Assembly (NCBI RefSeq): GCF_024609765.1
Contig: NZ_JANFDG010000002.1
Location: 62,001 to 126,000 of the forward strand
Reading direction: 5' to 3'
DNA from: Shinella pollutisoli
GTDB lineage: Bacteria; Pseudomonadota; Alphaproteobacteria; Rhizobiales; Rhizobiaceae
Length of the DNA stretch: 64,000 nucleotides
Numbering within the stretch: the stretch's first letter is position 1; each line of letters starts with the position of its first letter. Under the pieces are notes generated by a model. That model did no database searches. It was not told the origin of the DNA and saw only the letters and a list, made by a program, of their open reading frames with translations. Made by a program: the position numbers and the translations under genes. Positions 6,030 through 30,201 of the stretch are shown piece by piece.

Positions 6030-7051
6030 CGACCGCACATGACGACACCGCATCGAGGCCGGGTGCCGGCGAGCACCTGCGCGAGTTCCTTCGCGCCGGC
6101 GCCGTCTTCATCCTGCTCTTCGCCATGGTCGTCGGCTTCACCGCGGCGCAGCCGGCCTTCATCAACATCAACAACCTGATGAGCATCCTGCAGGCGGTCT
6201 CGGTCGTCGCCATCCTCGGCGCGGGCGTGACCGTCACGCTCGCCGTCGGCGGCTTCGACCTGTCGATCGGCGCCGTCGCCGCCTCCAGCGTCATGGCGGC
6301 GAGCTACGTCATGATCGTCTGGGGGCTCGGCGCCTTCGCGACGATCCCGCTGGTGCTGCTGCTCGGGGCGGCGATCGGCTTCGTCAACGCCTTCCTTATC
6401 GTCCGCCTCAAGGTGCCGGACCTGCTCGCCACGCTCTCCATGATGTTCCTGCTGACCGGCCTCCAGCTCATCCCGACGGCGGGGCGCTCCATCTCGCCGG
6501 GCCTGATCCTGCCCGACGGCACCACTGCGACGGGAGCGTACGATCCGCTCTTCCTGCTGGTCGGCCGCTCCAGCCTGTTCGGCATCGTGCCGCTGCCGGT
6601 CGTCATCATGGGCGTGGTCGCCGTCCTGCTCTTCGTGCTGACGGAGCGCACGCGCATCGGCCGGCTGCTCTTCGCCACCGGCGGCAACGAGCTGGCCACG
6701 CGGCTTGCCGGCGGGCCGACGGACCGGCTGAAGACGCTCGCCTATGTCATCTCCGGCACGCTCGCCTCGCTCGGCGGCATCGTCGTCGCCGCCCGCGTCG
6801 GGCGCGGCGACGTCTCGTCCGGCGCGTCGCTGCTGATGGATTCGGTCGCCGCCGCCCTGATCGGCTTCGCGGTGCTCGGCCTTCGCCGGCCGAACGTCTT
6901 CGGCACGATCGTCGGCGCGGTCTTCGTCGGCGTGCTGCTGAACGGGCTCACCATGCTCAACGCGCCCTACTATGCGCAGGATTTCGTCAAGGGCGCCGTG
7001 CTGGTCGGCGCGCTGGCGCTCACCTATGGCGTCGCCCGCGGGCGCGCCTGA
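6026..7051 (+). CDS. Sugar ABC transporter permease, RbsC type
   Basis: This 341-residue inner-membrane protein belongs to the RbsC/BPD_transp_2 family. Many hydrophobic segments run from residue about 25 to the end. The signature stretch GAGVTVTLAVGGFDLSIGAV lies near 70-90 and ATGGNELATRLAGG near 215-230, both typical of ribose/galactose-type permeases. It starts inside the stop codon of the ATPase gene and is followed by the binding-protein gene after 33 bases. It forms the channel of the importer together with the two-domain ATPase. Confidence 0.9.
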
Positions 7052-17359: not shown

Positions 17360-18190
17360 CTATGGCGCGACCAGCAACCGGGTCATCGGATGGGCCGGAT
17401 CGGCAAGGCCGTCGACGATGTTGAAATGGTGCCGGTCCGGCTCTTCCACGGTTGTCGTCGTGGCGCCGAGGCCGGTCCAGACATTGGCGAGAAGCGCGTT
17501 CTGGCGCAGGAACTCGGCGCGCTCGGCGGCCCCCGCCCAAGAGGTCAGGCGGACGTCGCCCGACGGGCGAAGAAGCGCCGGGCTTTCGGCGACCGCCTCG
17601 GCCTCGTCTATGCGCAGGCGCTCGTTCATCGCGGTGTTCATCAGCGGGCGCAGGTCGTGCAGGCCCGAGAGCGAGAGGACATGGCGGATGCGCGCGCGGA
17701 CCGGCTCGGCGAGCGGCGAGGGAGCCGAGACCATGCGGGTGACGAGATGGCCGCCCGCGGAATGGCCGGCGAGGAGGATCGGCCCCGCAACCTCGTCCGC
17801 TGCCGTCCCGATTGCCGCCGCGATCTCCCGCACGATGCCGGCTATGCGGATCTCCGGGCAGAGCGTGTAGGAGGGCATCGCCACGGCAAGGCCATGGGCG
17901 AGGGGGCCTTCTGCCAAATGCGACCAGTAGCTCCTGTCGAGCCGAAGCCAGAAGCCGCCGTGCACGAAGACGACGAGGCCGCGTGGGCTCCCCTCCGGCA
18001 GGAAGAGGTCGAGGCGGTTGCGTTCGGCCGGGCCGTAGGCGCGGTCGAGCCTGGCGCGGCCGGCGGCGGCAAGGCGCTCGCGAAAGAGGCGGGCGGGTTC
18101 GATCCAGGCGGCCGGCCAGCGCTCGCCGCGCGGAATGTTGCCGCCGTTGTCGTAGGCGTCGTCCCAATCTGCGACCCTGTAGCCGAACAT
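17360..18190 (-). CDS. Alpha/beta hydrolase (arylformamidase/BD-FAE-like)
   Basis: This 276-residue cytoplasmic protein has the alpha/beta-hydrolase fold. The oxyanion motif VVFVHGGFW lies near residues 72-80 and the nucleophile elbow GHSAGGH near 140-146. A late Asp (EEPDRHH) and the adjoining His could complete the triad. HGGFW followed by an N-terminal yDnxxxip-like opening resembles kynurenine formamidase and the BD-FAE esterases, though the substrate cannot be read from sequence. It begins 15 bases after livF ends and so appears to be the last gene of the liv operon. It may release an amino acid or acid from the imported compound. Confidence 0.75.
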   Translation of the reverse strand: MFGYRVADWDDAYDNGGNIPRGERWPAAWIEPARLFRERLAAAGRARLDRAYGPAERNRLDLFLPEGSPRGLVVFVHGGFWLRLDRSYWSHLAEGPLAHGLAVAMPSYTLCPEIRIAGIVREIAAAIGTAADEVAGPILLAGHSAGGHLVTRMVSAPSPLAEPVRARIRHVLSLSGLHDLRPLMNTAMNERLRIDEAEAVAESPALLRPSGDVRLTSWAGAAERAEFLRQNALLANVWTGLGATTTTVEEPDRHHFNIVDGLADPAHPMTRLLVAP

Positions 18191-18205
18191 GCCGTCCTTC
18201 CTTTC

Positions 18206-18888
<683 letters not shown>

Positions 18889-18892
<4 letters not shown>

Positions 18893-19638
18893 GCGGCGTC
18901 TCCGAGATAGGCGCGGCGCACCTCCGGGTCGCTGCGGATCTCGGCAACGCTGCCGCTGGCGATCACCTGCCCGTAGACGAGGACGGAGACCCGGTCGGCA
19001 AGCGCGAAGACGGCATCCATGTCGTGCTCGACGAGGAGGATCGGCGCTTCCTGTCGGAGACCGTCGAGGAAGGCGGTCAGCGTCTTCGAGCCTTCCGGTC
19101 CCATGCCGGCCATCGGCTCGTCGAGGAGGAAGGCCTTCGGCTGCATGGCGAGCGCCACGGCGATCTCCAGCTGGCGGCGCTCGCCGTGGGAAAGTTCCGC
19201 CGCCGGCACGTCCGCGCGGGCGGTAAGTCCGACGCGCGCGAGGATCGCCATCGCCGGCTCCGTCAGCGTGCGGTCGGAGAGGACGGGGCGGAGGAATCGC
19301 AGGCTCGATCCCTGCCGTGCCTGCGCGGCGAGCATGATGTTGCGGAGCGCGGAGAAGTCCGGCAGGAGCGAGGAGACCTGGAAGGTGCGGGCGAGGCCGA
19401 GGCGGGCCCGCGCCGCGGTCGAAAGGGCGGTGACGTCGCGGCCGAGGAAACGGATCGTGCCGGCGTCGGGGGCGAGCGCGCCGGCGATCTGGTTGATCAG
19501 CGTGCTTTTTCCCGCGCCGTTGGGGCCGATCAGCGCGTGGATCTCGCCGGGGCGGAGATCGAGGCTGACGCCGTTCGTCGCCTTCAGGGCGCCGAAGGCC
19601 TTTTCGAGCCTGTCGACGGCGAGGACCGGCTCAGCCAT
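18889..19638 (-). CDS. livG: Branched-chain amino acid-type ABC transporter ATP-binding protein LivG
   Basis: The protein has 249 residues with Walker A GPNGAGKST, signature LSHGERRQLEIA and Walker B AFLLDEPMAGMGPE, the last being characteristic of LivG. The ATG at 19636-19638 is chosen because GGGAGG lies seven bases upstream; an in-frame ATG at 19656 would extend the overlap with livM. The start overlaps the livM stop by eight bases, indicating coupled translation. Confidence 0.9.
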
Positions 19639-20605
19639 GGCGGGGCCTCCCGGCAAGAAGGCCGATCAGCCCGCCGCGGGCGAGGAAGACGACGGCGAGC
19701 AGCACGAGGCCGAGGAAGAATTGCCAGCGCTCCGTCAGCCCGCCGAGCACATGCTCGAAGGCGACGTAGAGGGCGGCGCCCGCGAGCGGGCCGGCAAGCC
19801 GGCCCTTGCCGCCGAGGATCACCAGAACGATCAGCTCGCCCGACATGTGCCAGGAGAGCATCGACGGGCTGACGAAGCGGTTGAGGTCGGCGAAGAGCGC
19901 GCCGGCAAGGCCCGTCACCATGGCCGACAGCACGAAGGCGACGAGGCGGATCGAGAAGGGGGAGATGCCGAGGGCGGCGAGCCGTACCGGGTTCTGCCGG
20001 GAGGCTTCGAGCGCCGCGCCGAAGCGGGAGGCCTGCAGGCGATGGAAGAGGGCGAGGGCCGCAAGCAACAGGGCGAAGACGAGGACGAAGAAGGAGAAGG
20101 GCTTTGCCGTCTCGACGCCGGGAAAGGCGTTGCGGACATAGATCGACAGACCGTCCTCGCCGCCATAGGCCGGCCAGGAGATGGCGAAATAGTAGATCAT
20201 CTGCGCGAAGGCGAGCGTGATCATGATGAAATAGACGCCTGAGGTGCGCAGACTGACGAGCCCGATGGGCAGCGCGACGAGGCCGCACAGCAGGACGGCG
20301 ACGAGCGAGATCGCCGGCATCGAGGTCGTGCCGGCAAGGCCGAAGGCGAGCGGCTCGGCGTTGAAGGCGTTCGTCGCGAGCACGCCCGCGGCATAGCCGC
20401 CGAGCCCGAAGAAGGCGGCATGGCCGAAGGAGACGAGCCCGCCGAGGCCGAGGGCTATGTTGAGGCCGACCGCGGCGAGCGCCAGCACGGCGATGCGGGT
20501 GGCGAGCGTGATGTAGAAGGTCTCGCCGAGGAGGAGGGCGGCAAGGGCTGCGGCGGGCAGCAGGGCGAGGAGGGCGAGGGTGGCGGCCTTTTCGCGTGGG
20601 CTCAT
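19631..20605 (-). CDS. livM: Branched-chain amino acid-type ABC transporter permease LivM
   Basis: The 324-residue membrane protein shows the LivM pattern: AVGLNIALGLGGLVSFGHAAFFGLGGYAAG (about 40-70, read in two pieces), RTSGVYFIMITLAFAQMIYY (about 120-140) and GELIVLVILGGKGRLAGPLAGA near 250. It has about nine hydrophobic segments. It lies three bases after livH and overlaps livG. It pairs with LivH to form the transmembrane channel. Confidence 0.9.
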   Translation of the reverse strand: MSPREKAATLALLALLPAAALAALLLGETFYITLATRIAVLALAAVGLNIALGLGGLVSFGHAAFFGLGGYAAGVLATNAFNAEPLAFGLAGTTSMPAISLVAVLLCGLVALPIGLVSLRTSGVYFIMITLAFAQMIYYFAISWPAYGGEDGLSIYVRNAFPGVETAKPFSFFVLVFALLLAALALFHRLQASRFGAALEASRQNPVRLAALGISPFSIRLVAFVLSAMVTGLAGALFADLNRFVSPSMLSWHMSGELIVLVILGGKGRLAGPLAGAALYVAFEHVLGGLTERWQFFLGLVLLAVVFLARGGLIGLLAGRPRHG

Positions 20606-20608
20606 CGG

Positions 20609-21529
20609 TCACGACCTCGCGGAGAAGAGGCCGCTCGGCCGGAAGGCGAGGATCAGCGCCATCAGGATGTAGATGAGCATGGAGGCGATCGCCGCGCCGA
20701 CCGGACCGGCCTGCGTCGCCGGCAGGGCGAGCGCCAGCAGCTTCGGCAGCAGGAAGCGGCCCATCGTGTCGACGAGGCCGACGAGCACCGCGCCGACGAG
20801 CGCGCCCTTGATCGAGCCGATGCCGCCGATGACGATGACGACGAAGGCGAGGATCAGCGCCGGCTCGCCCATGCCGACCTGCACCGATTGCAGCGCGCCG
20901 ACGAGCGCCCCGGCAAGGCCGGCGAGTGCGGCGCCAAGCGCGAAGACGAGCGTGTAGAGCGCGCGGATGTCGACGCCGAGTGCTGCGATCATCTCGCGGT
21001 CGGTCTCGCCGGCGCGGATGCGCATGCCGAGCCGGGTGCGGCCGATCAGCAGGTAGAGGCCCGCCGCCACCAGCACGCCGACGGCGATGATGGCGAGGCG
21101 GTAGAGCGGGTATTGCCCGCCGCCCGGCAGCGCCACGGCGCCCTGCAGGACGGGCGGGATGTCGAGATAGAGCGGGAAGGAGCCGAACAGCCAGCGCGTG
21201 CCCTCGGAGAAGACGAGGATCAGCGCGAAGGTGGCGAGCACCTGGTCGAGATGGTCGCGCGCATAGAGCCTGCGGATGACGGCGACCTCCATCAGCGCGC
21301 CGGCCGCGGCCGCAGCCGCGAGGCTCGTGACGAGCCCGAGCCAGAAGGAGCCGGTCGTCGCCGCCACGCTCGCGCAGGCGAAGGCGCCGACCATGTAGAG
21401 CGAGCCGTGGGCGAGGTTGATGAGCCCCATCACGCCGAAGATCAGCGTCAGCCCGGCGGCGATGAGGAAGAGCATCACGCCGAGTTGCAGGCCGTTCAGG
21501 AGTTGCTCGATCAGGAGGGCTAGCGACAA
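20609..21529 (-). CDS. livH: Branched-chain amino acid-type ABC transporter permease LivH
   Basis: About 306 residues. The family opening LIEQLLNGLQLGVMLFLIAAGLTLIFGVMG (two pieces) is followed by NLAHGSLYMVGAF, as in LivH. The start is uncertain: a TTG at 21527-21529 gives the normal length and N-terminus, while the longest frame reaches a GTG at 21616. The longer form would start inside the terminator-like hairpin that follows the binding-protein gene, so I prefer the TTG. No strong ribosome-binding site is visible for either. Confidence 0.82.
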   Translation of the reverse strand: MSLALLIEQLLNGLQLGVMLFLIAAGLTLIFGVMGLINLAHGSLYMVGAFACASVAATTGSFWLGLVTSLAAAAAAGALMEVAVIRRLYARDHLDQVLATFALILVFSEGTRWLFGSFPLYLDIPPVLQGAVALPGGGQYPLYRLAIIAVGVLVAAGLYLLIGRTRLGMRIRAGETDREMIAALGVDIRALYTLVFALGAALAGLAGALVGALQSVQVGMGEPALILAFVVIVIGGIGSIKGALVGAVLVGLVDTMGRFLLPKLLALALPATQAGPVGAAIASMLIYILMALILAFRPSGLFSARS

Positions 21530-21600
21530 GGGGATCGGTCCGGCGGGCTGGAGCAATTCCGGCAAAGGTGCGTAGCGGTCCTGCGTCCGGAATTGCCCGG

Positions 21601-21631
21601 AAACAAAGGCGGCCACCGGCAGGCGGCCGCC
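21601..21631 (-). terminator. Terminator-like hairpin between livK and livH
   Basis: On the minus strand a 10-base stem (GGCGGCCGCC pairing with GGTGGCCGCC, one wobble) with a four-base loop is followed by TTTGTTT. It lies 10 bases past the livK stop. In an operon this would terminate part of the transcripts, or protect their 3' ends, giving more binding protein than permease. Confidence 0.65.
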
Positions 21632-21641
21632 CTCATGGGGA

Positions 21642-22775
21642 TCACATCGCGCACTGGTCGGCGTAGGCGTCGCCGTGGTCGGTGAAGGCGGTGCCGATGA
21701 TCCGGTTGGTCAGCACGTCGCCGTCCTTGACCACCTCGCGAACGTAGATGTCCTGGATCGGATGGTTGTTCTTGTTGAACTTGAATTTCCCCCGCACGGA
21801 GGCGAAGTCCGCTTCCTTCAGGGCGGCGCGGAAGGCTTGCCTGTCCTTCACGCTCGCCTTGCCGAGCGCCGCGAGGATCAGGTTGGCGGTGTCCCAGCTC
21901 TGCGCGGCGTAGATCGAGGGCAGGCGGTTATATTCCTTGCTGAAGGCCTCGACGAAGGCCTTGTTGGCCGCGTTGTCGAGGTCCTTCGCCCAGGTGGCGG
22001 AGTTCTTGACGCCCAGCGCCGCATCGCCGATCGCCGGCAGAACGTCCTGGCTGAAGGAGAAGCCGGGGCCGGTGACGGGGATGTCGACGCCGGACTGGGC
22101 ATATTGCTTCATGAAGGCGATTCCCATGCCGCCGGGCAGGAAGAAGTAGACGGAATCGGCGCCCGAGGCGCGGATTTCCGCGATCTCGGCGGCATAGTCG
22201 GTCTGGCCGACCTGGGTATAGATCTCGCCGGCGAGCTCGCCCTTGTAGTAGCGCTTGAAGCCGGTCAGCGCGTCCTTGCCGGCCGGATAGTTCGGCGCGA
22301 GGATGAAGGTCTTCTTGTAGTCCTTGTTGTCGTATTCGCCCATCGCCTCGTGGAAATTGTCGTTCTGGTAGGCCACGTTGAAATAGTTCGGATGGCAGTT
22401 GGCGCCGGCAAGCGCCGAGGGACCGGCGTTCGGCGACAGGTAGATGACGTCCTGGGCCACCGTGTTCGGGATGACGGCCATGGCGAGGTTGGACCAGATG
22501 ATCCCCGTCATCAGGTCGACCTTGTCGCTCTGGATCATCTTCTCGGCGATCTGCACGGCGAGTTCCGGCTTCTGCGCATCGTCCTCGACGACGAGCTCGA
22601 TCTCGCTGTTGCCGGACTGCTTGATGGCGAGCTGGAAGGCGTCGCGCATGTCGATGCCGAGCCCCGCGCCGCCGCCCGAAAGCGTGGTGATGACGCCGAT
22701 CTTCACCGGCTCCGCCTGCGCAGCACCCGCCGCCAGCACCAGCGCGGCCGCGCCGGCCGCCAGAATCTTCCGCAT
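21642..22775 (-). CDS. livK: Branched-chain amino acid-type ABC transporter substrate-binding protein
   Basis: The 377-residue periplasmic protein has a signal peptide of about 21 residues ending AGAAQA. The Peripla_BP_6 fold follows: VKIGVITTLSGGGAGLGIDMRDAFQLA, IQSDKVDLMTGIIWSNLAMAV and SAAQSWDTANLI-type features. The ATG at 22773-22775 has AGGAGGA eight bases upstream, whereas an extended frame to 22871 has no such signal. It is the first gene of the operon livK-H-M-G-F-hydrolase. The ligand of HAAT-class binding proteins varies widely (amino acids, amides, urea, aromatic acids), so the symbol describes family rather than substrate. Confidence 0.87.
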   Translation of the reverse strand: MRKILAAGAAALVLAAGAAQAEPVKIGVITTLSGGGAGLGIDMRDAFQLAIKQSGNSEIELVVEDDAQKPELAVQIAEKMIQSDKVDLMTGIIWSNLAMAVIPNTVAQDVIYLSPNAGPSALAGANCHPNYFNVAYQNDNFHEAMGEYDNKDYKKTFILAPNYPAGKDALTGFKRYYKGELAGEIYTQVGQTDYAAEIAEIRASGADSVYFFLPGGMGIAFMKQYAQSGVDIPVTGPGFSFSQDVLPAIGDAALGVKNSATWAKDLDNAANKAFVEAFSKEYNRLPSIYAAQSWDTANLILAALGKASVKDRQAFRAALKEADFASVRGKFKFNKNNHPIQDIYVREVVKDGDVLTNRIIGTAFTDHGDAYADQCAM

Positions 22776-22884
22776 GTCGTTCTCCTCCTGTCGGTCCTGA
22801 AACCGTTTCTTGTCGGCAGAGAACTTTTCAGAGTTCCGGCAACAGTGCAACCGTGTGTTTTCGCTTCGCAATCCGAATGTGCGC

Positions 22885-23136
22885 TCAGCAGAGCGCCGAG
22901 CGGTTCATCAGCATGATGTCGCTCGACGTCAGCGCGGCGCGCGTGCGGTCGCCGATCTGGTCGAGCACCGCGTGCAGCGCCTTGTCGAGGCAGAATTCCA
23001 CGACTTCGGCCTCCAGCGAACGCGACGATTCCAGCGCATAGGCGACGAGACGCGCCAGCGCGATCAACTCGGTTTCCCGGTCGTCGGACTTCAAGGTTTC
23101 CATGTCCATGCTTTTCACGCCCCCGTGCCCGTGCAT
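22885..23136 (-). CDS. Small unknown protein (83 aa) downstream of tfuA
   Basis: I do not recognise the family. The 83-residue protein begins with a short Gly/His stretch (MHGHGGVK), then a helical region rich in Leu, Ala and Glu (LIALARLVAYALESSRSLEAEV) with a conserved-looking EFCLDKALHAVLDQIGDR segment, and one further Cys at the C-terminus. There is no membrane segment or signal peptide. AGGGGG lies five bases upstream of the ATG, a good ribosome-binding site. It starts 37 bases after the tfuA stop on the same strand, so it probably belongs to the TfuA-YcaO operon. A partner, regulator or immunity role is possible but unsupported. Confidence 0.6.
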   Translation of the reverse strand: MHGHGGVKSMDMETLKSDDRETELIALARLVAYALESSRSLEAEVVEFCLDKALHAVLDQIGDRTRAALTSSDIMLMNRSALC

Positions 23137-23173
23137 GTGTCCCCCTATCGGACACTATAGGCGCATCACGTGA

Positions 23174-23941
23174 TCATGGCGCGTGACTCGGGCGTGACAC
23201 ACGTTGAATGGGAAAATCCGCGGCCGGCCCCGTCGGCGGTTGGTCCGCCGCCGCGCGCCAGAGCGAGGTGGCTTGGAAGCGCCAGTTTCCGCGCCTGGCG
23301 GGGGTTTGCGGCGGAAAATCCGCCATGGCGGCGACGAGGAGGAGCGCGTCCTCCCGCTTCCGGTCGACGGCGCTTGCGTGGAGAAGTTGCAAGAGGCGAG
23401 GTCCGTCTTCCGCCATTCCCGCCGTCTCGACGATGCGGGACCAGGTGCGCGTCTTGTAGAAGAGGCCGGCGGCGGCCTCGCGGAGACGCGCGAGGCGCGC
23501 CGCATCCAGCCTCTTTTCGTCGGCGATCCGGTCGAGCGTGGCGTCGACGTTGACGAGCGGGAGCGAGAGGGCGGGATAGCCGAGCTCGGCCGGGCCGTGC
23601 AGGAGGGCGACGTCCGCGTCGTCCACCCGCCGGCCGGTGGCGAAATCGGCGTAGATGCGGCCGATGCCGATCATGCCGAAGCATGCGCATTCGGCGGCGC
23701 GCAACGCGCCCATGCTGGCGGCGCCGAAGACATGGACGCCGCTGTCGAGCGCAAAGAGGATCTCCTTGTGCCAGACCGGGGCGACATGCTCGAAACTGCC
23801 GTCGACGATGCCGATCGCCCTGGCGCCCGCCCGCACGGCGGCAAGCGCGTCGCCATGGGCGGCCGGCGGGCGCACGGTGAAGGCATCTCCGCAGATCCGG
23901 GCGGCATCGGGCAGGCTGGGTCCGGCGAACAGGATCTTCAT
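23174..23941 (-). CDS. TfuA-like protein
   Basis: The 255-residue protein has the TfuA core: an opening ILFAGPSLPDA and the hallmark VFGAASMGALRAAECACFGM with IGRIYADF (about 69-92). TfuA proteins act with YcaO enzymes; in methanogens the pair is linked to backbone thioamidation of a glycine in methyl-coenzyme M reductase, and the name comes from trifolitoxin production in Rhizobium. The gene overlaps ycaO by four bases (ATGA), so the two products are made in a fixed ratio. The target is probably the small repeat-ended peptide encoded just before ycaO. The C-terminal 40 residues are Pro/Arg-rich and probably disordered. Confidence 0.9.
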   Translation of the reverse strand: MKILFAGPSLPDAARICGDAFTVRPPAAHGDALAAVRAGARAIGIVDGSFEHVAPVWHKEILFALDSGVHVFGAASMGALRAAECACFGMIGIGRIYADFATGRRVDDADVALLHGPAELGYPALSLPLVNVDATLDRIADEKRLDAARLARLREAAAGLFYKTRTWSRIVETAGMAEDGPRLLQLLHASAVDRKREDALLLVAAMADFPPQTPARRGNWRFQATSLWRAAADQPPTGPAADFPIQRVSRPSHAP

Positions 23942-25131
23942 GACGCCTCGAACAGCAGGCGCGACAGGGCGCGCGGCCCGAGCGGCAGGCGGCGTGCGCC
24001 TTCCGGGCCTTCGAGATCGGGGACGACGACCTTGACGACGGAAACGGGCAGGGCGGCATCGGCGAGCGGCACGGCGACCACGCGCGTGACGCCCGCCGCC
24101 GCAAGCCGCGCGCGGCAGTGGATAAGGAGCGTGGCGGCATCGCCATCCGGCGCGTCGGGCGCGTCCGCCGGCCGTGGCTCGGCCGCAAACAGCGCCAGCG
24201 TCTCCGGCGCGAGCGGCCGGGAGAAGGTCTCGGCGAAGAGGTCGTCGCGCGCGCCGCTGATATAGGTGAGGCGCGACTGCGCCACCTCAGTGAGCGCGCG
24301 GACCGCCGCGCGGGCGGCGGCGGGATGGGCGCCGTAGCCGATCGTCGCGTCGTGGAAGAGCGGAGCCTTCTTCACGAGGATGTCGGGCTCGCCGAGGAGG
24401 GCCGCGAAGGCCGGAACGCGGGTGTCGCTGGTGATGTCGAAGAGGCGGAGCTCCAGCCCGTTGCCGCGCATGACGCGGGCGAGACGGTCGACGGTCGCGT
24501 CGCCGAGCGAGGCCGGTTCGACGGCCGTCGCGAGCCGGCGGGTGCGCGGCAGCAAGCGCCACAGCCGGTCCGCGTCCCGCTCGATGCGCTCCAGGAGACC
24601 GTGCAGGATCGCCTCCGTCTCGTCGTTGCCGGAGGCGAGGCCGTCGGAGGATTGCCAGAAGCGCGGCGCCGTCTGCGTCCGGTCGAGGGCGACGGCGTCG
24701 CGCGGCACCCAGACGCGGCTCTCCGTCGCAAGGTCGCGGCCGGCGAGCCAGTCGGCGGGCTCGTCCCCGGCGAGCACGGGCCGGCGCGCGGCAACGAGGC
24801 CGTCGAGCGGCAGGCAGGCCTCGCCGTCCCGCGCAAGCCCGTTCCGGCTCGCCCGGCGCATCGCGACGAGCGGCCTGCCGGCCACGGCCCGTTCGAGCGC
24901 CTCCATGGCGGCGGAGACCTTCGCGTCGAGGTCGGTGACGCCCTTGCCCTGGTTGATGACGATCGACCGGGCGTTGGGGCTGACGGCGTTCCAGACCGGT
25001 ATGCCGAGGCGGTCCAGCCCGGTCAGCCGCGAAAGCCGGGTGATGCCGAAGCGGGGCAGGAGCGCCTCGATCCGGCTCCAGGTCTCCTCGGGACGGCGGA
25101 TGCGGTCCGAGACGCCCTCCACGGCGGTCAA
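23938..25131 (-). CDS. YcaO-like ATP-dependent peptide backbone-modifying enzyme
   Basis: The 397-residue enzyme shows the YcaO ATP/Mg-binding pattern: AAMEALERA (about 82-91), ETEAILHGLLERIERDAD (about 172-190) and ALTEVAQSRLTYISGARDD (about 279-298). YcaO enzymes use ATP to activate a backbone amide, giving azolines, amidines or, with TfuA, thioamides. The C-terminus (SRLLFEAS) lacks the Pro-rich PxPxP tail of azoline-forming YcaOs, and no E1-like or dehydrogenase gene is present, both of which favour the TfuA-dependent route. The start is a TTG at 25129-25131 that shares TTGA with the stop of the upstream peptide gene; a GTG three codons later is an alternative. Confidence 0.9.
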   Translation of the reverse strand: MTAVEGVSDRIRRPEETWSRIEALLPRFGITRLSRLTGLDRLGIPVWNAVSPNARSIVINQGKGVTDLDAKVSAAMEALERAVAGRPLVAMRRASRNGLARDGEACLPLDGLVAARRPVLAGDEPADWLAGRDLATESRVWVPRDAVALDRTQTAPRFWQSSDGLASGNDETEAILHGLLERIERDADRLWRLLPRTRRLATAVEPASLGDATVDRLARVMRGNGLELRLFDITSDTRVPAFAALLGEPDILVKKAPLFHDATIGYGAHPAAARAAVRALTEVAQSRLTYISGARDDLFAETFSRPLAPETLALFAAEPRPADAPDAPDGDAATLLIHCRARLAAAGVTRVVAVPLADAALPVSVVKVVVPDLEGPEGARRLPLGPRALSRLLFEAS

Positions 25132-25367
25132 GTGTCCATGAAGCCCCCGGAAACATCCATGAAGCCGCCGGAGACCGCATCCGCGGACGAGGCGAGGGCC
25201 GCGAGGTTCACGCCCTTGACGACGGTCGCGCCGGCCTTGCGCAGGTCGTCCGCCTTCTTGAGGTCGCCGCCCGTCGGGGCGTCGACCCCGGTGACGGTTC
25301 CGGCATCGAGGTCGGCGACCCAGAGCCCGTCTTCGCCTGCAATGCCGAGAACAACAATCCTTGCCAT
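25128..25367 (-). CDS. Candidate RiPP precursor peptide with duplicated C-terminal core
   Basis: The 79-residue peptide has a leader-like region (MARIVVLGIAGEDGLW, then an acidic/Lys section GGDLKKADDLRKAG) and ends in two exact tandem copies of VSGGFMD (residues 65-71 and 72-78) plus a final Thr. It contains no Cys. AGGGAG lies about eight bases upstream of the ATG at 25365-25367. The stop shares four bases with the ycaO start, so precursor and enzyme are translationally coupled. Small size, position before YcaO/TfuA and the repeated C-terminal unit match a multi-core RiPP precursor. With no Cys, thiazoles are excluded; Gly thioamides or Ser-derived oxazolines remain possible. No exporter or leader peptidase is seen nearby. 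The family is not one I recognise. Confidence 0.75.
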   Translation of the reverse strand: MARIVVLGIAGEDGLWVADLDAGTVTGVDAPTGGDLKKADDLRKAGATVVKGVNLAALASSADAVSGGFMDVSGGFMDT

Positions 25368-25397
25368 CTCATCGTCTCCCTTTGCCCAAGCGCTTCG

Positions 25398-27209
25398 TCA
25401 GAAACCCGCCTTCTTCAGTCCTTCGCGATAGTGCTCCCGCTGCCATTCCTCCTTGAACGGCACCACGGCCATCCAGGCGTCGAGGTCGAAATCGGGATTG
25501 ATGTCATAGGCCCGCCGCACGAACTGCCGTGCCTTGCGCGTGTCGCCGAGCATGCCCCAGCAGGCGGCGGCGAGGCGATGGACGGGCGAGCGGTCCTTCA
25601 TGCGGCCGATGCAGGAGAGCGCCTCCTCGTAGCGGCCCATCGAGTAGTTCGCACCGGCCGCCGTCCAGAAATACTCGTCCGGCGGCAGCGGGTTGAGATC
25701 GATGGCGTGCTCGATCTTGGCGAGGCCGAGACCCGGCGCGGAAGCCTGCACCAGCGTGTCGGCGTAGCTGGCGATGACATTGGCATAGTGCGGGCTCAAC
25801 TGCTCGGCCCGGTCGAGATAGGCGGCGCTCTCGTCGAAGCGGCGGGCATAGAGCTTGACGACGCCGAGCTCGCGATAGCCGGAGGCGAGCCGCTCGTCGG
25901 CGCGCACGGCCTCGTGGGCATGGATCTCCGCCTGCCTGAGTAGGTCCTCGTCGCCGCGCGCGGTGACAAGCCATTCGAGGAAATAGGTGCGGGCGAGGCC
26001 GCCGAGCGCCGGCGCGAAGCCGCTGTTGCCCTGCAGCGCCTCGCGGAAGCTCTTGCGCGCCCGGCGCACGTCGCGCAGGTCGAGGTTCTTCAGGTGCCCC
26101 TGGCCGACCAGGAAGCTGCGATAGGCGTCGGGATCGCCCTCGTAGTCGCCGCGCACCAGCTCGTTTTGCTCGATCTCGGTGGCGATGACGCCGGCGATCT
26201 GGCGGGCGATCATCTGCCGCGAGCGCAGCAGGCCCTCGCTGGAAAGCGAGAAGCGGTCCGCCCAGATGACCTCGTCGCTGCCGAAGAAGATCAGCTGCGT
26301 GAAGAGCGTGTGCGTGCTGCCCTCGTCGTGCAGGCGGGTCTCCAGGATGTAGCTGATCGCGTGGCGCTCGTAGGTGGCGGCCTTGTCGGACTGGTGCGAG
26401 ATCTGGGCGGCGGTGTGCGGGGCGATGATGGAGATGGAGCGCAGGCTGCAGAGCCCGATCGTCACGTCCTCGATCAGCGCCTCGCAGAAGCGGGCGGGCG
26501 CGCGGGCGGCATGCGCCGTGACCGGCGGCAGGAGCACGACGCGCGGCGGGTTGCGGCGCGGTGCGGCGATGCCGGCGTCCTCCGGCTGCGCGGCGCGCGC
26601 GGGCGGCCGCGGCGCCATGAGGCCCGCGTCGGCGGGAGGCCGGCCCGTCAGCAGGGCGCGGATCTCCTCGTCGCCGGGATCGGCCTCGAGGAGCCGCAGC
26701 GCGGCCGACGACAGCGCCTGCCTATCGGCCGCCTCGCGGCGATCCGCCTGCCGCAGCAGCGCGCGGCGCAAAAGGCCGGTCTGCGCCTCGCGCTGCACGG
26801 CGATCCAGGTCGCGAGCGTCTTCGTCCCGGGGCGGACGTGTTTCAGGAAATCCTCGGCGAGGAGGCGGGCGAGCAGGGGCAGGTCCGCTTCCTCGCGCAC
26901 GGCGGCGATGTCGCTCTCCACCGGATCGGCGCCGCGTGCGACGGAGGTCTCGGTGAAGGCAAGGTAGGCGTGGCCGAGTTCGCGCTGGCGCTTCTGCACG
27001 CGGGCGAGTGTCTGGCGCAGGTTGGCGAGCGCCGTGGCGGGGTTGCCGTCGTCCCAGAGCAGGGCGGCGACATCGGCCCTCGGGATCTCGTCGAGCCCGC
27101 GCGCATGCAGGTAAGCGAGGATGAGGAGGGCCTTTTCCGGAAAGACGATCTCCTCGCCGCCCTCTCCGAGCAGCCGCAGATGACCGAACGTCTGCAACCG
27201 CGCCGGCAT
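25398..27209 (-). CDS. SARP-like transcriptional regulator with TolB-like and TPR domains
   Basis: About 603 residues. Residues 1-105 resemble the winged-helix/BTAD opening of SARP-type activators (LRLLGEGGEEIVFPEKALLILAYL, DVAALLWDDG, LANLRQTLARVQKRQ). Residues about 220-360 resemble the TolB-like/adenylate-cyclase-associated domain (VVLLPPVTAHA, FCEALIEDVTIGLCSL, YILETRLHDEG, VIWADRFSL). The rest is TPR repeats (AYRSFLVGQGHLKNLD to the end). The ATG at 27207-27209 is chosen because it follows the XRE gene stop by seven bases and homology begins at MPARLQTFGH. It ends 30 bases before the candidate precursor gene, so it likely controls, and is co-transcribed with, the TfuA-YcaO genes. Confidence 0.8.
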   Translation of the reverse strand: MPARLQTFGHLRLLGEGGEEIVFPEKALLILAYLHARGLDEIPRADVAALLWDDGNPATALANLRQTLARVQKRQRELGHAYLAFTETSVARGADPVESDIAAVREEADLPLLARLLAEDFLKHVRPGTKTLATWIAVQREAQTGLLRRALLRQADRREAADRQALSSAALRLLEADPGDEEIRALLTGRPPADAGLMAPRPPARAAQPEDAGIAAPRRNPPRVVLLPPVTAHAARAPARFCEALIEDVTIGLCSLRSISIIAPHTAAQISHQSDKAATYERHAISYILETRLHDEGSTHTLFTQLIFFGSDEVIWADRFSLSSEGLLRSRQMIARQIAGVIATEIEQNELVRGDYEGDPDAYRSFLVGQGHLKNLDLRDVRRARKSFREALQGNSGFAPALGGLARTYFLEWLVTARGDEDLLRQAEIHAHEAVRADERLASGYRELGVVKLYARRFDESAAYLDRAEQLSPHYANVIASYADTLVQASAPGLGLAKIEHAIDLNPLPPDEYFWTAAGANYSMGRYEEALSCIGRMKDRSPVHRLAAACWGMLGDTRKARQFVRRAYDINPDFDLDAWMAVVPFKEEWQREHYREGLKKAGF

Positions 27210-27216
27210 CGGAAAG

Positions 27217-27654
27217 TCAGATCCGCAGTTCCGGGATGTCGCCCGCCTGCGTGCGCTCGCCCGCCTGCTCGCCGGCCGACAAGGCCGTCGCGAGCGCGAT
27301 GATCGAGCGGCGCACGCGCGCATCCCCGATCTTCAGGAAGGCGCGGTTGAGGTCGAGGCCCTCCTTCGACGAGACGAAGGCGGACACGTCGCCCGGCTGG
27401 CCGGCACCGGCGAAGGATGCGGGCGCATCGTCCTCCTGGAAGAAGAAGCTCGGCGGCACGCGGAACACTTCCGCGATCGCCTGCAGGCGGCTGGCGCTGA
27501 TGCGGTTCGTGCCCTTCTCGTATTTCTGCACCTGCTGGAAGGTGACGCCGAGCCGGTCGGCCAGCGCCTCCTGGCTCATGCCGACCATGAGCCGGCGCAG
27601 GCGGACGCGGGAACCGACGAAGACATCGATCGGATTCGGGGTTTTCTTGTTCAT
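27217..27654 (-). CDS. XRE family helix-turn-helix regulator
   Basis: The 145-residue protein has an N-terminal HTH_3 domain (about 10-65): RVRLRRLMVGMSQEALADRLGV and TFQQVQKYEKGTNRISASRL are the classic helix-turn-helix pattern. The C-terminal half is helical (VRRSIIALATALSAG) and may serve dimerisation. The ATG at 27652-27654 is preferred over one at 27690 because AGGAG lies eight bases before it and homologues begin at MNKK. It is the first gene of the regulator-precursor-ycaO-tfuA set. A palindrome 22 bases upstream of its start could be its own operator. Confidence 0.9.
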   Translation of the reverse strand: MNKKTPNPIDVFVGSRVRLRRLMVGMSQEALADRLGVTFQQVQKYEKGTNRISASRLQAIAEVFRVPPSFFFQEDDAPASFAGAGQPGDVSAFVSSKEGLDLNRAFLKIGDARVRRSIIALATALSAGEQAGERTQAGDIPELRI

Positions 27655-27788: not shown

Positions 27789-28544
27789 TCAGTGGCTTTG
27801 CGGTGCGCTCAGCGAGGCGACGAAGCGCCGGGTGCGCTCCCGTTCCGGCGCGGTGAAGATGGCGCGGGGCGAGCCCTGCTCGACGATGACGCCGCCGTCG
27901 AGGAAGACGACGCCGTCGGCGACGCGCGAGGCGAGCCTAAGGTCGTGGGTGGCCATGATCATCGTCGTGCCCTCGCGGGCGAGCCGGCTCAGCACCTCGA
28001 CGACCTCCTCCGAGAGTTCCGGGTCGAGCGCGGAGGTGGGTTCGTCGCAGAGCAGCACGCGCGGCGAGGGGGCGAGCGCGCGGGCGATCGCCACGCGCTG
28101 CTGCTGGCCGCCGGAAAGCGTCGCCGGCCAGGCCTCGGCCTTGTGCGCCATGCCGACCTTTTCGAGCAGCTCCATGGCGCGGGCGCGGGCCTTGTCGGCC
28201 GGCCATTTCAGCACGGTGACGAGGCCCTCCATGACGTTGGCGATCGCCGTCTGGTGCGGGAAGAGCTGGAAGTTCTGGAAGACCATGCCGGTCTGGCGGC
28301 GCAGCTTCTGGACCGCCGGCCAGCCGATCTTGCGGCCGGGCGCGAATTCCAGCCTCTCCTCGCCGAGGCGGATGGCGCCGGAGGTCGGGATCTCGAGCAG
28401 GTTGACGCAGCGCAGCAGCGTGCTCTTGCCGCCGCCCGAGGGGCCGACGAGCGCCGTCACGGTGCCCTCGCTGAGCCTGAGGCTGATGTCCTGCAGCACC
28501 ACGTGGTCGCCGAAGCGTTTCTCGACATGCTCGAGCTCGATCAT
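27789..28544 (-). CDS. Polar amino acid ABC transporter ATP-binding protein
   Basis: The 251-residue ATPase is of the GlnQ/HisP class. Walker A is GPSGGGKST (about 36-44), the signature LSGGQQQRVAIARAL (about 135-149), and Walker B VLLCDEPTSALDPEL. It begins with the family opening MIELEHVEKRFG. The ATG overlaps the permease stop (ATGA). It energises uptake through the adjoining permease. Confidence 0.92.
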   Translation of the reverse strand: MIELEHVEKRFGDHVVLQDISLRLSEGTVTALVGPSGGGKSTLLRCVNLLEIPTSGAIRLGEERLEFAPGRKIGWPAVQKLRRQTGMVFQNFQLFPHQTAIANVMEGLVTVLKWPADKARARAMELLEKVGMAHKAEAWPATLSGGQQQRVAIARALAPSPRVLLCDEPTSALDPELSEEVVEVLSRLAREGTTMIMATHDLRLASRVADGVVFLDGGVIVEQGSPRAIFTAPERERTRRFVASLSAPQSH

Positions 28545-29221
28545 GTGCGGGCCTCCAGGAAGCCGCCGTAGCGGGAGAAGCGCCGTTCGAGCCGCACCTG
28601 CAGGGCGGAGAGGACGGAGCTCAGCGCGAGGTAGATCAGCGCCGCCTCGATATAGAGGATCAGCGGCTCGTAGGTGGTGGCGACGATGCGCTGCGCGGTC
28701 TGGAACAGCTCCGGCACGGTGATGGCGGCGGCGAGCGAGGTGTCCTTGACAAGCGAGATGAAGGTGTTGGAGAGCGGCGGCACGGCGACGCGCGTCGCCT
28801 GCGGCAGGATCGTGCGGCGCATCGCCTGCGACCAGCTCATGCCGATCGAATAGGCCGCCTCCCACTGCCCGCGCGGCACCGACGAGATGACGGCGCGGAT
28901 GATCTCCGACGTATAGGCGCCGACGTTGAGCGTAAAGCCGATGAGCGCCGCCGTAAAGGCGTCGAGCAGGATGCCGGCGCTCGGCAGGCCGTAGAAGATG
29001 ACGAAGAGCTGCACGAGCAGCGGCGTGCCGCGGAACACCCAGACATAGAAGCGCGCCGCGGCGACCACCGGCTTCGGCCCGAACAGGCGGGCGATCGCCG
29101 TCACCAGCCCGAGCACGAGCCCGAAGGTGAAGGAGAGCAGTGTCAGCGGAATGGTGAAGACAAGGGCGGCCCACAGGAGCGTCGGCAGCGAGTCCGTCAT
29201 CAGTTGGAGCCAGGGCGGCAC
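28541..29221 (-). CDS. Polar amino acid ABC transporter permease
   Basis: This 226-residue inner-membrane protein of the HisM/GlnP class has five or so hydrophobic segments. The FGLVLGLVTAIARLFG opening, VWVFRGTPLLVQLFVIFYGLP (read in pieces) and the EAA-type loop AYSIGMSWSQAMRRTILPQATRVAVPPL are typical. It is separated from the binding-protein gene by 107 bases that hold two strong hairpins, and overlaps the ATPase gene by four bases. The channel is probably a homodimer because no second permease gene is present. Confidence 0.92.
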   Translation of the reverse strand: MPPWLQLMTDSLPTLLWAALVFTIPLTLLSFTFGLVLGLVTAIARLFGPKPVVAAARFYVWVFRGTPLLVQLFVIFYGLPSAGILLDAFTAALIGFTLNVGAYTSEIIRAVISSVPRGQWEAAYSIGMSWSQAMRRTILPQATRVAVPPLSNTFISLVKDTSLAAAITVPELFQTAQRIVATTYEPLILYIEAALIYLALSSVLSALQVRLERRFSRYGGFLEART

Positions 29222-29244
29222 GGGCGGGTCCTTCGCAAAGGCAC

Positions 29245-29315
29245 TGGCCGGGGCGGTCCCCGGCCATCGTCGGCGATATTATGGATCAACGGGCGGCGGA
29301 AGCGAAACCGCCGCC
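29245..29315 (-). terminator. Two intercistronic hairpins after the amino-acid-binding protein gene
   Basis: Two stem-loops lie between the binding-protein stop (29329) and the permease start (29221). One is GGCGGCGG/CCGCCGCC at 29292-29315 with an eight-base loop; the other is TGGCCGGGG/CCCCGGCCA at 29245-29266 with a CGGT loop. Neither has a U-run, so they more likely protect the 3' end of the upstream message than terminate it. Confidence 0.5.
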
Positions 29316-29328
29316 GCGGTTGCCCCGG

Positions 29329-30102
29329 TTATTTCGACACGTCCTGGCCGAAATACTTCTCGGCGATCTTCAGGTAGGTGCCGTCGGCCTTGATGTCGGC
29401 GAGCGCCTTGTTGATCGCCTCCAGCAGCTCCGGCTCGCCCTTGCGGATGATGACGCCGGAATGGTCGGCGTCGGCCTGTTCGGCGGCGATCTTCACATTG
29501 GCGTCGGGCTTGTGCTTCTTGAAGTCGAGGAAGGACAGGCTGTCGTTGATCGTCGCGTCGGCGCGGCCGGTCAGCACGAGCTGGATCGACTGGTCGAAGC
29601 CGTCGGTGCCGACGAGCTCGGCGCCGGACTGCTCGGCGAGCTTGCCGAAGTTGCTGGTCAGCGACTGGGCGGACTTCTTGCCCTTGAGGTCCTCGAAGCC
29701 CTTGATGCTGTCGTCGTCGGCGCGCACGATCAGCACGGCCTTGGAGGCGATGTAGGGCTCGGAGAAGTCGTATTTCTTCTTGCGCTCCTCGGTGATGCCG
29801 ACCTGGTTGATCACCGCGTCGTAGCGGTTGGCGTCGAGGCCGGCGATGAGGCCGTCCCACTTGCCTTCCAGGAACTCGGCCTTGACGCCGAGGCGCTCGG
29901 CGATCGCTTCGCCGATCTCGACGTCGAAGCCGACCAGCTTGCCGGTCTCGTCATGGTAGGTGAAGGGCGCGTAGGTGCCCTCGGTGCCGATCTTCAGGGC
30001 GCCCGCAGCCTGGATCGCGGCGAGGTTCTCTCCGGCATGGGCGGGGGCGAGGAGGGCCGCCTGCAGGGCCGCTGCGGCGGCGATGGTCTTCAACCAGTTC
30101 AT
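29329..30102 (-). CDS. Polar amino acid ABC transporter substrate-binding protein
   Basis: The 257-residue periplasmic protein has a signal peptide ending AAPAHAGE-like near residue 22 and an SBP_bac_3 fold. LKIGTEGTYAPFTYHDETGKLVGFDVEIGEAIAERLG (in pieces), DGLIAGLDANRYDAVINQVGITEERKKKYDFS and the closing LLEAINKALADIKADGTY are typical. The family covers cystine, glutamine, His/Lys/Arg and similar ligands; the FSEPYIASKAVLIV stretch fits the cystine-type subgroup but does not settle the ligand. The ATG at 30100-30102 has GGAG seven bases upstream. It is first in its operon, and repeated short sequences lie 40-100 bases upstream. Confidence 0.92.
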   Translation of the reverse strand: MNWLKTIAAAAALQAALLAPAHAGENLAAIQAAGALKIGTEGTYAPFTYHDETGKLVGFDVEIGEAIAERLGVKAEFLEGKWDGLIAGLDANRYDAVINQVGITEERKKKYDFSEPYIASKAVLIVRADDDSIKGFEDLKGKKSAQSLTSNFGKLAEQSGAELVGTDGFDQSIQLVLTGRADATINDSLSFLDFKKHKPDANVKIAAEQADADHSGVIIRKGEPELLEAINKALADIKADGTYLKIAEKYFGQDVSK

Positions 30103-30141
30103 CTTGAAACTCCGTTCCGGTGTTCGATGGGGCGATAGATC

Positions 30142-30201
30142 GCAGAAAACGCCGCAGAACGATGGGCAGAAAACTGCGAATAAAATCGGCAAATGCGAAT
30201 A
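30142..30201. promoter_or_regulatory. Iteron-like direct repeats upstream of amino-acid ABC operon
   Basis: GCAGAAAAC, GCAGAAC and GCAGAAAAC begin at 30142, 30154 and 30166, an exact 12-base period. TGCGAATA then occurs at 30175-30182 and again at 30194-30201. The block lies 40-100 bases upstream of the binding-protein gene on the minus strand and about 140-200 bases upstream of the divergent CofD-like gene. It may bind a regulator. Confidence 0.4.

Follow-up and report, generated by a model that had tools for sequence, protein, structure and literature searches.

The window analysed here is a stretch of 64,000 nucleotides from Shinella pollutisoli, and all its coordinates are given as positions in it. 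At 22885-27654 it contains a cassette of six genes on the minus strand, in the order XRE-family regulator, SARP-like protein with TPR repeats, peptide of 79 residues, ycaO, tfuA and small protein. The TGA stop of the peptide gene overlaps the TTG start of ycaO, and the end of ycaO overlaps the ATG start of tfuA as ATGA. The peptide terminates in ...VSGGFMDVSGGFMDT, that is, in two exact copies of VSGGFMD followed by T, and has no Cys. A first-pass annotation of this DNA had reported the gene positions, the repeated core, the TTGA and ATGA overlaps, the lack of Cys and a YcaO without a PxPxP tail; all these points are confirmed by the sequence and its translation. We consider it likely that the cassette is a biosynthetic operon for a ribosomally synthesised and post-translationally modified peptide (RiPP) with several thioamidated cores.

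The peptide belongs to a family which recurs in related bacteria. The window peptide has matches in 28 of 397 genomes of the order, and a profile of 27 precursors has them in 50 of 297 genomes of the family, distributed in 19 of 109 genera; both counts include the window's own genome. The first-pass annotation had proposed to look in relatives for similar small peptides beside YcaO and TfuA, and these are what we have found. Another genome of the same genus (G845) carries an identical precursor. A draw of 385 genomes from the class, with at most 13 candidates scored per genome, gave only the window's own match and none in the other 384. Plasmids also contain the family: 57 of 72,556 records match (29 Rhizobium, 10 Sinorhizobium, 10 Ensifer and 8 others). 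In the 40 plasmid matches listed the gene is unannotated, called 'hypothetical protein' or found in a record without annotation. Relatives of the YcaO in named genomes come from ten Shinella, one Endobacterium and three Streptomycetaceae; the leader match is absent from the three Streptomycetaceae loci (L040-L042).

The C-termini of the family are short cores, often in tandem, present in 1 to 8 copies and commonly of the form [S/A/G]-G-x-(hydrophobic)-[D/E]. Most Shinella precursors have two or three [S/D/G]GG[F/Y][M/L]D units, although L038 deviates. Two loci (L044 and L045) have four GGF[L/F]E units each, L063 has eight HHYFP units, and other relatives end in a single unit, for example SGHVDG or SGVFDG. 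Of 84 distinct precursors, 61 contain the motif [SADGN]-G-x-[FYLIMVH]-(x)-[DE], which was chosen post hoc; shuffling would lead one to expect 8.6. A weak second match of L050 was left out of this count. Only two of the 84 have a Cys beyond residue 55.

The two copies in the window differ at three nucleotides, all of them synonymous. A similar situation is found in 14 precursors with tandem units of the GG type: of the differences seen in 258 codon comparisons, 108 are synonymous and 16 change the amino acid, in units which were picked by their amino-acid motif, with a bias toward likeness, and whose pairs are not independent. All 16 amino-acid differences fall on the first residue of the unit, and nucleotide differences at codon positions 1, 2 and 3 amount to 19, 11 and 114. 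The tandem types of L055, the L056 group, L060, L063, L064, L121 and L123 stand outside this comparison. The core looks selected, because the tandem units within a gene differ mainly at synonymous sites. Units of one gene also agree at residues 4-6, which vary among species: F-M-D, Y-M-D, F-L-D, F-L-E, F-F-E and L-F-E. As judged from these motif-picked units, each precursor gene appears to be held to one product. Some cassettes have two tandem precursor genes with different cores, for example GGYMD repeats followed by a single SGGFYDK. They are found in L031 (5480-5737 and 5784-5981), L038 (5343-5570 and 5789-5983), L134 (6580-6798 and 6891-7082) and L161 (6113-6352 and 6462-6686).

The rest of the precursor, up to about residue 62, is more uniform: the pattern M1, G8, G11, W16, D19, G23, T24, G52 is kept across genera in the alignment. 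An AlphaFold model based on 14 sequences has strands at 4-9, 15-19, 24-28 and 48-53 and helices at 34-44 and 55-64, with a mean predicted local distance difference test score (pLDDT) of only 60; the core is below 50, and so are most of the last 19 residues. No Pfam or NCBIfam model matches the window peptide. The 27 precursors compared with Pfam touch five families with one member each, none common to several of them. A profile search among PDB sequences has its best match at E 0.22, and a fold search with the low-confidence model gave nothing at E 0.001. Weak matches to the FtsH periplasmic domain, to a RiPP recognition element (E 2) and to the pheromone receptor Rgg3 (E 4) were not used.

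The cassette was compared in 84 loci. One of them (L119) is the same locus as L033, which leaves 83 loci with 26 genus labels (assigned numbers plus Endobacterium); four genomes contribute two loci each, and one match in a family genome (G1024, E 8.5e-4) lies outside the set. The gene found most constantly with the precursor is that of the SARP-like/TPR regulator, not those of the enzymes. It stands directly upstream on the same strand in all 83 loci, whereas YcaO is downstream in 77 and TfuA in 73; the XRE gene is upstream on the same strand in 65. In L135 the TfuA gene is upstream on the other strand. Six loci have no YcaO. One of them (L055) is cut short by the end of its contig, and another contig of that genome begins with YcaO and TfuA. 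The other five (L049, L050, L130, L155 and L157) are orphan modules of a SARP-like gene and a precursor: TfuA is found elsewhere in all five genomes, and the downstream genes differ when compared by eye.

Several other arrangements deserve a description. Another module of a SARP-like gene and a precursor, with neither YcaO nor TfuA nearby, is present in a Rhizobium tumorigenes plasmid (L178, 4034-6219); its downstream genes, too, are different ones as judged by eye. Two genomes with orphan modules, G023 and G396, also have a separate YcaO-TfuA cassette without a precursor match (L085 and L084). The SARP-like gene is absent in L085 (around 6621-6821) and shortened in L084 (7149-7760); by eye, L085 retains an open reading frame (ORF) which begins like a precursor. 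In L086 (8984-11340, G023:C1127) a SARP-like gene stands beside a YcaO-TfuA pair, with no match to the window-type precursor between them; an ORF of 47 residues in that place may be another type of precursor. Sinorhizobium meliloti Ak57 pSymB (L177, 6001-7785) has a precursor and YcaO, with no TfuA in the annotation of the stretch. Each of the four genomes of label g457 has two TfuA matches away from the cassette.

The first-pass annotation had named the two upstream proteins as XRE and SARP-like regulators. The XRE protein matches Pfam HTH_3, and the TPR repeats of its neighbour are clear: a profile search of PDB sequences returns TPR proteins. The label 'SARP-like' itself is weakly supported by sequence, with Trans_reg_C detected in just 2 of 11 members of the family (best E 0.01). 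In S. meliloti pSymB the gene at this position is annotated as 'adenylate cyclase'.

Both enzymes are readily assigned, YcaO by Pfam YcaO (1.3e-59) and TfuA by Pfam TfuA (2e-41). Among the NCBIfam models, both score best with those of McrA-glycine thioamidation. The YcaO scores 204.9 bits with methan_mark_1, 101.6 with the azole-type SagD and 13.7 with the S12-type YcaO; TfuA scores 162.3 bits with NF033432. The best solved relative of the YcaO is MJ1094 (PDB 6pe3, deposited as uncharacterised; E 1.3e-34), and the stretches MEALER and SGNDETEAILHGLLERIERDA of the window enzyme align with the glutamate motifs of this structure. For TfuA it is the TfuA-domain protein 6xp8 (E 4.9e-26). The tfuA gene is the sole match to its family in the window's genome. 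A PqqD-type recognition element (Pfam) has no match at E 1 among the six cassette proteins. Neither a ThiF-like or E1-like protein nor a dehydrogenase appears in the Pfam scan of these six and of ten flanking proteins of the window, in agreement with the first-pass annotation.

The gene limits are given in Table 1. The start of the XRE gene was set at 27654 because the alignment with most relatives begins only at residue 9-13 of the longer ORF, and that of the small downstream protein was refined from its relatives to 23109, which gives 74 residues instead of 83. A similar small protein is present within 6 kb in 49 of the 83 loci, with 14 of the 26 genus labels. Its AlphaFold model has only helices (mean pLDDT 78); Pfam gives no match above the cut-off, and a search for similar folds in the PDB gave nothing at E 0.001.

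Table 1. Features of the cassette in the S. pollutisoli window
Feature	Position	Strand	Basis
XRE-family (HTH_3) regulator, first gene of the cassette	27217..27654	-	Pfam HTH_3 5.2e-16
SARP-like regulator (weakly supported label) with C-terminal TPR repeats, 603 aa	25398..27209	-	TPR matches
Putative precursor peptide gene, 79 aa	25128..25367	-	Translation; homologues in order and family genomes
Putative leader, residues 1-62, conserved across genera	25182..25367	-	Alignments, AlphaFold model
Putative core copy 1, VSGGFMD	25155..25175	-	Translation, codon comparison
Putative core copy 2, VSGGFMD	25134..25154	-	Translation, codon comparison
ycaO, TTG start; nearest to thioamidation-type YcaO	23938..25131	-	Pfam, NCBIfam, PDB relative
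tfuA	23174..23941	-	Pfam TfuA, NCBIfam NF033432, PDB relative
Small protein, predicted all-helical, role unassigned, 74 aa	22885..23109	-	Recurrence in relatives, AlphaFold

The ten flanking proteins are, according to Pfam, importer components, an alpha/beta hydrolase and CofD. Binding-protein-dependent importers of the branched-chain and SBP_bac_3 types are found on both flanks, in 17363-22871 and 27792-30192; in L178 the orphan module is preceded by an amino-acid ABC set which resembles them. In the relatives neighbouring proteins were grouped by ORF clustering in the 84 loci (L119 included), without assignment to families. Apart from the cassette genes, no cluster on the same strand extends beyond 10 genus labels; the largest of these others is an ORF for an ABC-transporter ATPase. 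Neither an exporter nor a protease stands out among the common neighbours. The first-pass annotation had seen neither in the cassette, and this still holds: the flanking proteins scanned in the window and the ORF clusters of the relatives give no evidence of a dedicated exporter, of a protease or of another tailoring enzyme.

In the reading which we favour, precursor residues 1 to about 62 would be a conserved leader, probably partly folded. The lack of a recognition-element match in the cassette proteins suggests that YcaO recognises the precursor directly; TfuA would be its activating or sulfur-delivering partner. We infer that each core exchanges a backbone oxygen for sulfur, with the conserved Gly of [S/A/G]-G-x-(hydrophobic)-[D/E] as the most likely site, and that general cell proteases then free short products, while the XRE and SARP-like/TPR proteins would control the operon. 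The known systems described in PMC8120280 and PMC13063428 provide a precedent for the chemistry: YcaO spends ATP to activate the amide, sulfur then takes the place of oxygen, and TfuA is thought to activate YcaO or to aid sulfur delivery. The YcaO of E. coli recognises uL16 in its folded form and does so with no recognition element (PMC13063428); a leader that is folded might plausibly be recognised directly in the present case. The similarity of cores among 71 loci has a partial correlation of 0.33 with YcaO, 0.14 with the leader and 0.14 with the TPR part, calculated without a significance test; shared ancestry confounds these values, and the automatic core picking went wrong in two loci (L044 and L045) and is doubtful in three others (L054, L061 and L062). 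They modestly favour a core read by YcaO over one read by the TPR part. The TfuA-dependent backbone modification proposed in the first-pass annotation is supported as the best reading of the locus.

Several observations weigh against it. The core motif is absent from 23 of the 84 precursors, such as L063 with its RSDAASHHYFPNR repeats. Both enzymes are under the curated cut-offs of the McrA models (365 bits for YcaO, 235.2 for TfuA). Four g457 loci (L126, L127, L132 and L135) have YcaO without TfuA directly downstream, TfuA being found elsewhere in the genome, and thioglycine is present in two methanogens without TfuA (PMC5589413). An ORF for an ABC-transporter ATPase about 3 kb upstream in 30 of the 84 loci, with 10 genus labels, might indicate a link with transport. 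Its member in the window (PF00005) lies beside a permease and a solute-binding protein; the cluster may be unspecific, since ABC ATPases resemble one another.

It is also conceivable, though unlikely, that the 79-residue product is a small intracellular protein whose folded N-terminal part stays attached, so that the thioamidated tail works in the cell, as do the McrA thioglycine and the uL16 thioamide of E. coli. Thioamidation of proteins by YcaO is reported in archaea and bacteria (PMC5589413, PMC13063428), the YcaO of the window is nearest to the McrA type, and the lack of a prominent protease or exporter would be expected, as would an N-terminal part with predicted strands and helices conserved across genera. 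However, the C-terminal units differ strongly from genus to genus in copy number and sequence, which is unlike what one sees at a fixed site of a protein, and the structural model has low confidence. A different backbone reaction of YcaO, such as an azoline or amidine on a core Ser or Gly, is very improbable in our opinion. YcaO chemistry is diverse (PMC13063428) and many cores contain Ser, but TfuA follows directly downstream in 73 of the 83 loci, Cys is almost absent from the C-termini, the ten flanking genes scanned have no ThiF-like or dehydrogenase family, and the window YcaO has no PxPxP tail.

The constant presence of the regulator raises another question. The peptide might be chiefly a regulatory ligand of the SARP-like/TPR protein, its modification being the maturation of a signal. 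We think this improbable as the chief role, although it is compatible with a thioamidated RiPP. The five orphan modules, which keep the SARP-like gene without YcaO or TfuA nearby, and the units which agree at positions 4-6 within a gene and differ among species would fit such a role. A plainer alternative is that the regulator merely switches the precursor on, and core similarity follows YcaO above the TPR part. A related proposal, which we hold as doubtful, is that these thioamide RiPPs form a class of their own: the modified core would serve as a signal, either kept inside the cell or imported again, and the SARP-like/TPR regulator that travels with the precursor would read it. If true, it would mean thioamide-peptide signalling in rhizobia and their relatives, with lineage-specific types of signal encoded in the repeats.

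Literature searches gave no description of this precursor family, and the cassette has apparently never been studied in the laboratory. The first-pass annotation had called the locus undescribed: this holds for the precursor family as far as these searches go, but not for its kind, since TfuA or 'thioamitide' clusters of rhizobia are already in print, in bulk or by software label. Genome mining assigned more than 500 TfuA-related clusters with YcaO to Rhizobium and predicted 797 precursor families (PMC8120280); glycosyltransferases and ABC transporters are described there as common in its largest families. The main text of that paper mentions neither Shinella nor SARP nor repeats, and the present precursor family may be in its supplement. 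The software label is found in PMC10100860 and PMC10609224. All YcaO-TfuA RiPPs known in 2021 came from Actinobacteria (PMC8120280); a 2026 preprint lists four characterised classes and adds one (PMC13174530). What is new here is the recurrence in the order, the cores which look selected, the small protein predicted as all-helical and the regulator as steadiest partner. The cassette is compact and present in tractable bacteria of soil and root nodules. It may be a minimal system for the study of how a YcaO-TfuA pair which has no separate recognition protein locates its substrate, and it opens the question of the function of thioamide peptides in Gram-negative bacteria. Since precursor and regulator always occur as a pair, also where the genome has the enzymes in another place, a signalling role can be tested directly.

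In thioviridamide-like thioamitides a macrocycle is formed from a core Cys and a Ser or Thr; the window peptide, with no Cys, does not share this feature. The azole or azoline RiPPs (LAPs, linear azol(in)e-containing peptides) have an E1-like/ThiF partner and usually a dehydrogenase, neither of which Pfam finds in the cassette proteins or the ten flanking ones. The thiovarsolins of Streptomyces varsoviensis (var cluster, PMC6511847) are closer: they also have a YcaO-TfuA pair beside a precursor with leader and core, and the number of core repeats varies from none to five across their family, compared with two in the window and 1 to 8 in its relatives. Their core is APR/GPR, whereas here it is mostly SGxF(D/E)-like. 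The var cluster has in addition a heme-oxygenase-like protein, an ATP-grasp ligase, an amidinotransferase and an MFS transporter. The genes for the first three are not in all thiovarsolin relatives (PMC6511847), and none of these three is found among the six cassette and ten flanking proteins of the window. In the std cluster of Streptomyces thermodiastaticus (PMC13174530, a preprint) the motif which YcaO-TfuA thioamidates is short, conserved and close to the C-terminus of the precursor; there StdGH modifies Asn, and the cluster adds MNIO and carbamoyltransferase/peptidase steps, none of which is seen here.

The McrA system of methanogens provides the nearest NCBIfam models for both enzymes, although neither reaches the curated cut-off. 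Thioamidation of McrA Gly465 requires YcaO and TfuA (PMC5589413), and its substrate is a large enzyme subunit, whereas here it would be a dedicated small peptide. Gly465 precedes Phe466 (PMC5589413); the window core has Gly-Gly-Phe, and Shinella cores have Gly-Phe or Gly-Tyr. The parallel is only suggestive, because other genera have SGHF, SGQF or SGRL, and in many other members of the family no Gly stands directly before the aromatic residue. The cassette has the features of the TfuA-related clusters: adjacent ycaO and tfuA genes and a short precursor with a conserved leader and a variable core.

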